Source of the DNA: Rhizobium sp. PP-CC-3A-592 | Lineage (GTDB): Bacteria > Pseudomonadota > Alphaproteobacteria > Rhizobiales > Rhizobiaceae | Reading direction: 5' to 3' | Assembly (NCBI RefSeq): GCF_003217095.1 | Contig: NZ_QJSR01000001.1 | Span: 1,154,009-1,218,008 of the forward strand | DNA length: 64,000 nucleotides | Shown here: piece by piece, positions 29,174 through 50,012 of the stretch | Position numbering within the stretch: position 1 is the first letter of the stretch | Layout: each line of letters starts with the position of its first letter | The notes under the pieces: generated by a model | Seen by the model: only the letters and a program-made list of their open reading frames with translations | What the model was told of the DNA's origin: nothing | Database searches by the model: none | Program-made: the position numbers and the translations under genes

Positions 29174-29225
29174 TCGCCGGGGTTCATCGCCTGATGTGTG
29201 TCACTATTTCGGGTTACCTCAGACA

Positions 29226-29264
29226 ATAAAAAAGGCCGGGGCGAAACCGCACCGACCTTCCTCA
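29226..29264 (-). terminator. Leftward rho-independent terminator without an obvious gene
   Basis: Read on the minus strand, AAGGTCGGTGCGG pairs with GCCCCGGCCTT around a short TTTC loop and runs into TTTTTT. There is one mismatch and one G-T pair. No credible minus-strand gene ends just before it. The nearest minus-strand transcript is tRNA-Gly, 255 bp upstream. Confidence 0.65.
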
Positions 29265-29463
29265 TTCGCTTTTATCAAGTTGCCAGTACATCCGTGGTCA
29301 AATCGACGAAAGCTTGCATCGGACCCGAGAACATCTCTTTTCGAAACGCTCGACCGGTTGCCGATGAGAGAGATATAGGAGCCGAATGTGACGACTTCAA
29401 GTCGAAGCCAAATTTTCTTCGCAGAATCATTCTCATCGAGATTTTGGTCCAGGAACCGGCTCA

Positions 29464-29518: not shown

Positions 29519-29592
29519 TGGAGCGGGTGAAGGGAATCGAACCCTCGTATTCAGCTTGGGAAGCTGCTGCTCTACCATTGAGCTACACCCGC
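29519..29592 (-). tRNA. tRNA-Gly (anticodon CCC)
   Basis: On the minus strand the 74-nt sequence begins GCGGGTGTAGCTCAATGGTA and ends in ACCCGC-T-CCA with the CCA encoded. The anticodon loop is TTCCCAA, the T-loop is TTCGATTC, and the acceptor stem GCGGGTG pairs perfectly. The 27-43 pair of the anticodon stem is a G-A mismatch, and the rest of the cloverleaf is regular. A TTGACA box lies upstream (29626-29631 on the complementary strand). Confidence 0.95.
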
Positions 29593-30763: not shown

Positions 30764-30841
30764 GCCATCATCCTTTTTTGAAGGCCGACAAAACCAAATA
30801 CGGCCGATTGACGCAAGCGGGGCGAAGACGTATGGGAACTT

Positions 30842-30903
30842 ATCCCGTGGTGATTTGGCCGGTCGGCTTGCAGCCACGTTAAACAAATGGCTAAAAAGAC
30901 CGG
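30842..30903 (+). promoter_or_regulatory. SAM-II riboswitch aptamer upstream of metZ
   Basis: The sequence shows the compact SAM-II pseudoknot: the P1 strand CGTGG (30846-30850), then TGATTTGGCC, GGCTTGCAG and the returning CCACG (30874-30878). The conserved AAACAAA (30881-30887) and GCTAAAAAG (30890-30898) end segments follow. This motif is the classic leader of metA/metZ genes in alphaproteobacteria and binds S-adenosylmethionine. It lies about 60 bp before the metZ start codon. Confidence 0.9.
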
Positions 30904-30939
30904 GCTCGAACCGGTCTGCTTTACGCGACCGGTTTTTTT
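30897..30939 (+). terminator. Riboswitch-coupled terminator/antiterminator before metZ
   Basis: Three mutually complementary blocks are present: AGACCGG (30897-30903), CCGGTCT (30911-30917) and GACCGGT (30927-30933). The first can pair with the second. Alternatively ACCGGTC (30910-30916) pairs with the third and is followed by seven T residues, forming a rho-independent terminator. The first block abuts the end of the SAM-II aptamer, so SAM binding could choose between the two. Confidence 0.75.
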
Positions 30940-44453: not shown

Positions 44454-45725
44454 TCAAAAACGGACCGTGAAAACGGTTCCCTCGCCCAGCACCGAGCGGA
44501 CGATCAGGCGGGCGCGGTGCCGGGTGAGGATGTGTTTGACGATCGCAAGCCCCAGCCCGGTGCCTTTCTTCGAGCGGCTGGCCTCGACATTCACCCGGTA
44601 AAAACGCTCGGTGATGCGCGGCACATGCTCGGCGGGGATGCCCGGCCCGTGATCGCGCACAGAGACCTCGACCGGATCACCGCCGCCGCCGCCGCCGGAC
44701 AGGGTCACCTCCACGGTCTTGCCTTCCTGCCCATACTTGCAGGCATTTTCCACGAGGTTCTCGAACACTTCGATCAGTTCGTCGCGATCCCCCTGAACGA
44801 CGACGGGAAATGACGGAACGGCGAGCGAGATGGTGATGCCCACATCCTGGGCGAGCGGCCCCAGCGTGTCGCAGACATGGCCGAGCAAGGGTGCAAGCGC
44901 GACTTCCTGCTCGGGCGCGATATGGGATTTCAGCTCGAGGCGGGAGAGCGACAGCAGGTCGTCGACAAGGCGGCTCATCCGGTTCGCCTGCTCCAGCATG
45001 ATGCCGAGGAACCGCTCATGCGCCTTCACATCGTTGCGCGCCGGCCCCTGCAGCGTCTCGATGAAGCCGCGCAGGGAGGCGAGCGGGGTACGCAGTTCGT
45101 GGCTGGCATTGGCGACGAAATCCGAGCGCATGCGATCGATACGGCGCGCCTGCGAGATATCGCGGTAGGAGACGACGTAGACGGTATCGATGCCTTCCGG
45201 CGCCGACACCTGCTTGGGCCCACCAGCAGCCAGCGCAGCAGGCGCCACGCGCACGATGTAGACGGCCTCGGACGGCAGACGTTCAGAATGTTCGATCTGG
45301 TTGATGCGGCCGGTCGCGATGGTCTCGCGCACCATGTCGAGGATGCCCGGCGAACGGACGCGACCGGAAAGGTCGGAATTGGCGGGAATGACGCCGAAGG
45401 CCTTTTCGGCCGCCTGGTTCTGGAAGAGCACGCGCTCGTCCGGTCCGATGACGAGCACCGGCATATCCAAGGCGTCGAAGCCGGCTTCGAGCGTCGCCAG
45501 TTCAGCCTCGCCGGTCGAGGGCAGCGGCTCGACGGCAGCGGGGGGTGCCGGCATCGCCGGTTGCCGCAGAAGCGCCAGAACGAGAACGATCCAGAATGCG
45601 GCGGCAAGGGCGGCGTGGCCACTGGTCGCGATCAATCCGACGCAGCCGGCAAGGGTGAGGCCGATGAGCCACTTCTCCGCCCAGATGCGGGTGGCCATCG
45701 TCCGCCAATATGTCGTTTCCTGCAC
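44454..45725 (-). CDS. phoR: Phosphate regulon sensor histidine kinase PhoR
   Basis: This 423-residue kinase has two short hydrophobic N-terminal segments (about 22-55) and a PAS domain (LDMPVLVIGPDERVLFQNQ, about 90-205). The HisKA phospho-acceptor is in NASHELRTPLASLRGF, followed by a HATPase domain with NLVENACKYG, DHGPGIP and GTGLGLAIVKHIL. It phosphorylates PhoB under phosphate limitation. I chose GTG 45725 because GGGAGG sits just before it. ATG 45698 is an alternative nine codons later, and the longer open frame is not conserved-looking. Only 96 bp separate this start from the 263-bp repeat element. Confidence 0.88.
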   Translation of the reverse strand: MQETTYWRTMATRIWAEKWLIGLTLAGCVGLIATSGHAALAAAFWIVLVLALLRQPAMPAPPAAVEPLPSTGEAELATLEAGFDALDMPVLVIGPDERVLFQNQAAEKAFGVIPANSDLSGRVRSPGILDMVRETIATGRINQIEHSERLPSEAVYIVRVAPAALAAGGPKQVSAPEGIDTVYVVSYRDISQARRIDRMRSDFVANASHELRTPLASLRGFIETLQGPARNDVKAHERFLGIMLEQANRMSRLVDDLLSLSRLELKSHIAPEQEVALAPLLGHVCDTLGPLAQDVGITISLAVPSFPVVVQGDRDELIEVFENLVENACKYGQEGKTVEVTLSGGGGGGDPVEVSVRDHGPGIPAEHVPRITERFYRVNVEASRSKKGTGLGLAIVKHILTRHRARLIVRSVLGEGTVFTVRF

Positions 45726-45821
45726 ACGTCCTCCCGACTGTCGCTGCCTGCCCGAACGAGCCTGCGCCAACAGGCACATACCATCACACCTGCCGGCCGA
45801 TGCGGCGACATCCAGCATGTA

Positions 45822-46084
45822 ATACCAAGTGTCGATGATAGGGACCTATAGGACAGGCTTCTCGGGTTTTCTGGCTAGGAGAGGTTCGCAGATCGATGCT
45901 GTCGCATCGGTCAAGAGCCTCGACAACGCCAGAAAGCCCGAGAAGCCTGCCGAAGGTGGTTCAGTGCTGATCTCTGGCGGTGTTGCGATGCTTGCCCGAT
46001 GCGACAGCATCGCGCTGCGCACCGCGCCTAGCCAGAGATCAGCACTGAACCATCCTATAGGTTCCTATCATCGACACTTGGTAT
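45822..46084. repeat. 263-bp symmetric double-hairpin element with 32-bp terminal inverted repeats
   Basis: The outer arms 45822-45853 and 46053-46084 are inverted repeats matching at 31 of 32 positions. Between them sit two 96-nt hairpins of identical layout in mirror orientation. Hairpin 1 (45854-45949) has a 22-bp stem (21/22), and hairpin 2 (45957-46052) has a perfect 22-bp stem. A 7-bp spacer joins them. Each 52-nt loop contains a further 7-bp stem (45881-45887 with 45915-45921 in hairpin 1) and an apical CGATGC/GCATCG stem with loop TGTC or GACA. The loops are 40/52 identical when one is inverted. The element may be flanked by a TA duplication. There is no transposase and no credible gene. 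Confidence 0.9.
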
Positions 46085-46190
46085 AACCCGGCTTCATGAC
46101 ATGATTTTCACGGTGCGCTTGAAATCGCAATGGACTTATGGCCTGCTCCCCAGCCACGGCGGCAACCGGCCCTTCAGGCTCGGCCCGCCC

Positions 46191-46240
46191 GGCACACCCC
46201 GCCGGGCACACCCCGCTTGGCACACCCGCTTGGCACACAC
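46191..46240. repeat. Tandem GGCACACCCCGCNN repeats before ppk2
   Basis: Four head-to-tail units start with GGCACAC at 46191, 46205, 46219 and 46232, with unit lengths of 14, 14, 13 and a partial last copy. They end just before the ppk2 ribosome site (GGAGATAAGCAGC). Their position in the leader could allow slippage-based variation in unit number. Confidence 0.65.
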
Positions 46241-46253
46241 GGAGATAAGCAGC

Positions 46254-47129
46254 ATGGACGACATCAAGCCGGTCGAGATCGTCATCAACGGGAAGACGCG
46301 CCTGTTCGACGTCGACACGCCGGACCTGCCGGACTGGATCACCAAATCCGCCATGGCCTCCGGCGGCTACCCCTATGAAAAGAAGCTGAACAAGGACGTC
46401 TTCAAGGCCGAGCTGGAGAAGCTGCAGATCGAGCTCGTGAAGGTGCAGACCTGGCAGCAGGCGAGCGGCAAGCGCGTCATCGTGCTGTTCGAGGGGCGCG
46501 ACGCGGCCGGCAAGGGCGGCGCGATCCACGAAACCCGCGCCTATATGAACCCGCGTACAGCACGGATCGTCGCGCTGACCAAGCCGACCGAGACGGAAAG
46601 CGGGCAATGGTATTTTCAGCGCTACATCTCGCATTTCCCGACGAAGGGCGAGTTCGTGCTGTTCGACCGGTCCTGGTACAATCGCGCCGGCGTCGAGCCG
46701 GTCATGGGCTTCTGCACGCCGGCCGAGTACGAGCATTTCCTCAAGCAGGTCCCGGCATTCGAGAAGCTGATCGTCGACGAGGGTATCGTGCTCTTCAAGA
46801 TCTGGCTGGAAATCGGACAGGAAATGCAGCTGATGCAGTTCCATCAGCGCCGCCACGATCCGCTGAAGGTGTGGAAGCTCTCACCCATGGACATCGAGGC
46901 TTTGTCGCGCTGGAACGACTATACCGAGAAACGCAACCGAATGCTGAAGGAAACCCACAAGGGCAAGGCGCCCTGGACCGTGATCCTCGGCAACGACCGC
47001 CGTCGCGCCCGGCTGAACCTCATCCGCCACATCCTGACCGGACTGGACTATACCGGCAAGGACGAGAAGGCGATCGGCGAGATCGACGGCAAGATCCTGA
47101 ACTCAGAGCACCATTTTCTCAAGTCGTGA
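46254..47129 (+). CDS. ppk2: Polyphosphate kinase 2
   Basis: This 291-residue PPK2 family kinase transfers phosphate between polyphosphate and nucleotides (typically GDP or ADP). It has Walker [16 protein letters not shown] near residue 80, Walker B-like [20 protein letters not shown] and the lid-region [18 protein letters not shown]. Its closeness to the phosphate regulon fits a role in phosphate storage or use. ATG 46254 follows GGAGATAAGCAGC. The frame is open to 46101, but that part includes the tandem repeats. A GC-rich hairpin follows the stop. Confidence 0.92.
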
Positions 47130-49936: not shown

Positions 49937-50012
49937 GCCGCTTTAGCTCAGGTGGTAGAGCACATCATTCGTAATGATGGGGTCGCAGGTTCGAGTCCTG
50001 CAAGCGGCACCA
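49937..50012 (+). tRNA. tRNA-Thr (anticodon CGT)
   Basis: The 76-nt gene has acceptor GCCGCTT pairing with AAGCGGC, discriminator A and an encoded CCA (50010-50012). The anticodon stem CATCA/TGATG encloses TTCGTAA, giving anticodon CGT for threonine ACG codons. D-arm (GCTCAGGTGGTAGAGC) and T-arm (GCAGGTTCGAGTCCTGC) are canonical. Confidence 0.97.

Follow-up and report, generated by a model that had tools for sequence, protein, structure and literature searches.

Genomic Context and Structure of the Element

The window (the whole 64,000-nucleotide stretch of Rhizobium sp. PP-CC-3A-592 that was analyzed) carries a histidine kinase gene (HisKA, HATPase_c) on the minus strand and a PPK2 gene on the plus strand. 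Between these divergent genes lies a gene-free element of 261 bp (45823–46083), which consists of two mirror-image hairpins inside inverted ends. An earlier, sequence-only reading of this DNA had named the kinase gene phoR, which fits the adjoining predicted PstS-like gene (PBP_like_2). That reading had given the element a span of 263 bp; its architecture was correct almost to the base, but the limits are corrected here to 45823–46083 because the flanking duplication is 3 bp long (TAA at 45820–45822 and at 46084–46086). The open reading frame list shows no gene in the 261 bp, and only the ends of neighboring frames overlap the element edges.

The tip of the left terminal inverted repeat (TACCAAGTGTCGATGATAGGGACCTATAGGA, 45823–45853, plus strand) recurs in 11 of 199 Rhizobiaceae genomes, and the right terminal repeat (46053–46083, minus strand) is its inverted match. 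Hairpin A (45854–45949) comprises an outer stem of 22 bp, an inner one of 7 bp, and an apical one of 6 bp, and it matches the covariance model described below on the plus strand. Hairpin B (45957–46052) has the same layout and matches on the minus strand. The centre that separates them, CCGAAGG (45950–45956), is identical or similar in relatives. Re-analysis reproduced what had been read for the terminal repeats (matching at 31/32 positions), the two hairpins (22-nt arms around a 52-nt loop, with Watson-Crick pairs at 21/22 and 22/22 positions), and the loops (identical at 40/52 positions after inversion). The element and its own reverse complement are identical at 186/263 positions. Its predicted RNA fold has an energy of -194.4 kcal/mol. 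Shuffled sequences average -89.2 kcal/mol (sd 4.74), which places the element at z -22.2, and none of 200 shuffles folded equally well.

Rfam at the gathering score has four matches in the window and none within the element, and a search at E values up to 10 yielded only five sub-threshold, chance-like matches. The four window matches are a SAM_alpha riboswitch, an ar35 sRNA, and two tRNAs (30837–30915, 29225–29366, 29522–29592, and 49937–50009). Immediately 5' of the likely ppk2 start, at 46184–46237, there are four 13-nt tandem copies of CCCGCxxGGCACA at spacings of 14, 14, and 13 bp.

Insertion and Copies in the Genome

Six further genomes sampled from the genus were queried with the window flanks, and the region was found without the element in all six. 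In five of these (G001–G005), the empty site reads ..TAACC.. with one TAA, where the present genome has TAA on both sides, which demonstrates insertion; in the sixth (G006), the element is absent and the region is too diverged for the empty site to be read. Because the other sampled genomes lack the element there, the copy at this site is of recent origin relative to the genus. The sequence-only reading had suggested a TA duplication of the type made by IS630/Tc1-mariner transposons, and TA does adjoin both ends of this copy. However, the empty sites show a duplication of TAA, and 85 elements have TNA flanks with a matching middle base. Affinity with IS630/mariner therefore fails, and a miniature inverted-repeat transposable element (MITE) of that type is highly improbable.

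The same genome contains two further full copies, which differ at 2 and 6 positions over 263 bp, a 193-bp copy in which the second hairpin has lost its loop, and one fragment. It also has three solo palindromes, each consisting of two fused ends. Thus, the other copies, half copies, and empty sites for which a search had been proposed are all present. One solo palindrome seems to occupy an orthologous site in three species (G000:C7:48821, G001:C33:285082, and G002:C2:168082), where the TGA duplications around it have partly decayed.

Elements with TACCAA-Type Ends

A 24-letter end pattern, allowing up to two mismatches, was searched in 199 Rhizobiaceae genomes. Its distribution is patchy: it is present in 11 genomes and occurs up to 43 times in a single genome, while a reversed control pattern gave one match among the matches listed. 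Searched exactly, the degenerate pattern occurs in 85 stretches of named genomes, all of them with Rhizobiaceae-type names. The genera are Rhizobium, Neorhizobium, Pararhizobium, Allorhizobium, Xaviernesmea, Hoeflea, and Agrobacterium, which we take to belong to the Rhizobiaceae.

From 301 loci, 132 elements were extracted after duplicates had been removed by their flanks. Identical 3-bp flanks surround 85 of the 132, and all are TNA (36 TTA, 28 TAA, 12 TGA, and 9 TCA); the remaining 47 do not have identical flanks. TNA stands on both sides of 106 elements, and the flanks match in 85 of these, where a quarter would be expected. Element lengths fall mainly into three classes, up to 60 bp (20 elements), 131–180 bp (14), and 248–282 bp (86), the rest being between or above these. 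In the elements that were inspected, members of these classes carry zero, one, and two hairpins, respectively. Flanks are identical in 57/86 two-hairpin, 7/14 one-hairpin, and 12/20 short elements, two of the short ones (L218 and L240) being mispaired ends. Among elements above 350 bp, three of 361–389 bp (L100, L118, and L136; G134) hold runs of N and were rejected as assembly artefacts. Long palindromes break assembly, so copies may be undercounted.

Two 57-bp palindromes in one genome share the same internal junction and have separate duplications, TCA and TGA. The hairpin-less palindrome was therefore itself mobile, and the ends alone suffice for movement. Insertion into stop codons was considered and rejected: TNA serves as the stop of a frame of at least 70 codons at 54/197 element sides, which was judged against background, and compared to the TNA sites available between called open reading frames, stop codons were used 7 times with 5.72 expected, in a crude frame calling that placed 11 of the 31 usable sites inside a frame. 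In genome G067 (L101, L102, L123, and L124), the palindrome ATCCTCGGGTTTAAACCCGAGGAT lies inside the apical hairpin loop, apparently a repeat nested in a repeat. At L019:1437-1713, a different palindrome, AGAGCATTTC...GAAATGCTCT, takes the place of the second hairpin or fills it.

Neither the 301 loci nor the end pattern in the 199 genomes revealed an autonomous partner carrying a transposase between TACCAA-type ends. End pairs 450–6000 bp apart with equal flanks were sought in the 301 loci, and the single candidate, a 1.8-kb pair at L178, was taken as chance: the left end is also that of an ordinary 267-bp element, and five mismatches mark the right end. In two genomes with 50 and 41 end matches, inspection by eye showed no such pair. 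The PF01609/PF13340 genes of the window's genome and six others have no TACCAA-type ends around them, and genome G184, which is rich in these elements, has no PF01609 or PF13340 gene. Genomes G091 and G134 contain IS5-type elements of 908–932 bp with identical TNA flanks, which the search required. TNA duplication is the rule in IS1031-like elements of the IS5 family (we assume the label IS1031 group for IS5-family elements that duplicate TNA), and the present element has this duplication in common with them. The ends, however, are not shared, being GAGCCTGAC-type in the IS5-type elements and TACCAA... in the present element.

Conservation of the Hairpin

As had been proposed, a covariance model of the hairpin was built, and it has matches across the family, order, and class. 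In overlapping samples, model R1 matched at least 51 of 199 Rhizobiaceae genomes (E up to 1e-6), at least 43 of 249 genomes of the order (E up to 1e-5), and at least 23 of 240 genomes of the class (E up to 1e-6), 22 of them outside the order. Two named Rhizobiaceae replicons (1.68 and 1.74 Mb) gave no match at E up to 1; one of them carries a diverged 24% fragment, so the model misses remnants. At 82 loci searched with the model, sense matches were found in 80 and a single match in 25. Adjacent matches are in plus-then-minus order in 54/54 pairs, mostly 5 bp apart. Given this mirror arrangement, the first hairpin met is the sense one whichever strand is read. Ten antisense model matches were dropped before the pair-order count, the G-U count on the model-fitted alignment, and the folding-energy comparison.

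For structural analysis, 15 of 41 representative hairpins that were truncated, nested, or odd were left out, and the remaining 26 diverse hairpins (less than about 82% identity) were aligned by sequence. In their consensus fold, the outer stem comprises 18 aligned pairs and is followed by an inner stem; the apical stem has 6 bp and is CGATGC/GCATCG in most hairpins and CGGACC/GGTCCG in others. Covariation had been read from the two halves of a single element, and it holds across the 26 hairpins, with changes on both sides in 26/32 pairs. Paired cells make up 88.3%, compared to 67.5% in shuffles, and the covariation score is 0.581, compared to 0.199 in shuffles and at most 0.177 in slid versions. 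The hairpins form a genuine structural family of the Alphaproteobacteria that is kept by compensatory changes, and its fold has demonstrably been maintained, by selection or by another process. Template switching can also maintain complementary stems without selection.

In 18 non-redundant two-hairpin elements, all 36 arms match best in another element and never their partner, so the arms are old, distinct halves that do not copy each other. The apical tetraloops are variable. Those of the present element are complementary, as had been noted, but the suggestion that they kiss is unsupported, given that the loops are complementary between arms in only 2 of the 18 elements.

Possible RNA or DNA Function of the Hairpins

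Folding energy provides an alignment-free measure of strand preference. The sense strand is the one that begins at the nearer end. In 24/28 non-redundant hairpins it forms the more stable RNA fold (by a mean of 5.9 kcal/mol), and with DNA parameters it does so in 23/28 (mean 2.4). The p-values of this comparison overstate, because the hairpins are related; in a set reduced at 70% identity, the asymmetry stands at 11:3 (p 0.057 in a sign test, 0.0023 by Wilcoxon). This asymmetry favors folding of the hairpins as RNA rather than as DNA, and with it the structured RNA that was among the earlier suggestions.

An alternative is that the element is an ordinary MITE whose hairpins work at the DNA level: a cruciform would join the ends of a stiff 261-bp segment for the transposase, and template switching would maintain the stems. 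We regard this as possible, though clearly not the probable case. It agrees with the length and near perfection of the hairpins and with the persistence of the fold preference under DNA parameters. It also agrees with the unbiased comparison of G-U and A-C cells, in which a symmetric self-alignment gave 46:36 (p 0.32), without a significant strand effect; the outer stem alone gave 29:10, and the inner-stem stretch gave 9:20, that is, against an RNA strand. A ratio of 82:18 from a model-fitted alignment was set aside as biased towards G-U. Against DNA-level hairpins, elements of 52–57 bp that have none also carry target duplications (the 12 of 20 short elements above), so hairpins are unnecessary for movement. 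Loops are as conserved as stems (0.87 bits at unpaired loop positions compared to 0.75 at paired positions, in the model-fitted alignment), which template switching does not explain, and the folding asymmetry with RNA parameters exceeds that with DNA parameters.

A second alternative is a host structured RNA gene or cis-regulator that was spread by transposition and kept for a function at particular genes. The class-wide covarying structure, the strand asymmetry of folding, and the position here between divergent genes are all compatible with such a role. On the other hand, the element is absent here from all six congeners and its sites are scattered, hairpin-less copies occur beside full ones, and Rfam has no match in the element at the gathering score, those that appear at E up to 10 all being sub-threshold. 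A consensus scan of 45700–46300 found no promoter- or terminator-like sites. Taken together, we consider a host RNA gene or regulator unlikely.

Variation of the Ends and Proposed Mechanism

Outside the group that duplicates TNA, the two-hairpin core is framed by other tips, including (CTAG)AGAGCnnTTC-like, TAGCAGGCTGTTGAAG-like, and TTAGGTCGTGTACTCAT-like sequences (tip classes were assigned by eye). Different tips can occur in one genome: G225 has copies of TACCAACGG-, CTAG-TACCT-, and TAG-AGCGG-type, and G250 has copies with TACCAA-type and CTAG-AGAGC-type tips. TACCAA tips with TAA on both sides are also found outside the order (L383). The inner part of the end beside the hairpin (..CATTTGATGG..) is common to several tip classes, as judged by eye.

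The element has the features of a MITE, namely a target duplication with an empty site, inverted ends, short size, no gene, and several copies. A non-autonomous mobile element had been one of the earlier proposals, and further copies, half copies, empty sites, and a structure kept by compensatory changes bear it out. We conclude that it is probably a non-autonomous, MITE-like transposon in which the twin-hairpin core persists longer than the ends. Its insertion, with duplication of TAA, took place in the interval from the histidine kinase gene to ppk2. In the mechanism that we propose, a DDE transposase acting in trans would recognize the TACCAA...TGATAGGAACC ends and presumably cut at TACC. 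The core may be selected for its fold. Such selection would more likely act in read-through RNA, through processing, protection, or insulation, and less likely in DNA. Working in both directions as an RNA element of read-through transcripts, the core could make an insertion less costly or shield the transcript. The core would outlive the ends, which may be exchanged for tips that other transposases recognize.

We tentatively raise a further reading, which we hold to be a minority possibility. The core might be a mobile alphaproteobacterial RNA device that works in two directions and outlives its transposons, with the fold and the loop letters kept, the stems changed, and the outer ~20 bp swapped. 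If this is true, the swapped outer ~20 bp would let the RNA device be carried by different transposases.

Comparison with Known Repeats

Correia/NEMIS, RUP, BOX, and ERIC are short and gene-free, with inverted ends, target duplication, intergenic copies, and a strong fold, and BOX has a variable number of inner modules. The present element resembles them in these respects. It differs in that they duplicate TA and it duplicates TNA, and in that its conserved part is a class-wide, covarying twin-hairpin core while its ends vary.

Bacterial MITEs and palindromic intergenic elements are the subject of a review (PMC10969869, available portions). The nearest published neighbors are RIME and Bru-RS, compared here by description and not letter by letter. 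According to the portions available of their sources, RIME, the Sm repeats, and the A/B/C motifs of Sinorhizobium are, like the present element, palindromic intergenic repeats of Rhizobiaceae (PMC2573895, PMC2245857, PMC2780559). S. meliloti pSymB (1.68 Mb) gave no covariance-model match at E up to 1, in a search that had no labelled RIME as positive control, and repeats noted in 300 kb of this replicon do not look like the present element; on identity with RIME, these results count only against. Bru-RS1 and Bru-RS2 of Brucella, a related genus, are described in the available parts of two papers as palindromic intergenic repeats of about 103–105 bp linked to an IS that creates TA duplications within YTAR (PMC2267715, PMC2266754), and the likeness is one of description only. 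A published description of the element was not found in the literature searched, including the available portions of PMC2573895, PMC2873474, PMC2267715, PMC10969869, PMC2245857, PMC2266754, PMC2780559, and PMC2680597.

Significance

MITEs are usually defined by their ends, and the core is counted as unimportant. In the present family, which extends across a bacterial class, it is the core that lasts, while the ends are exchanged. The family is a tool for finding the missing transposase, and the covariance model annotates many unexplained intergenic repeats of alphaproteobacterial genomes. It also offers a natural experiment on why selfish DNA retains RNA-like structure.
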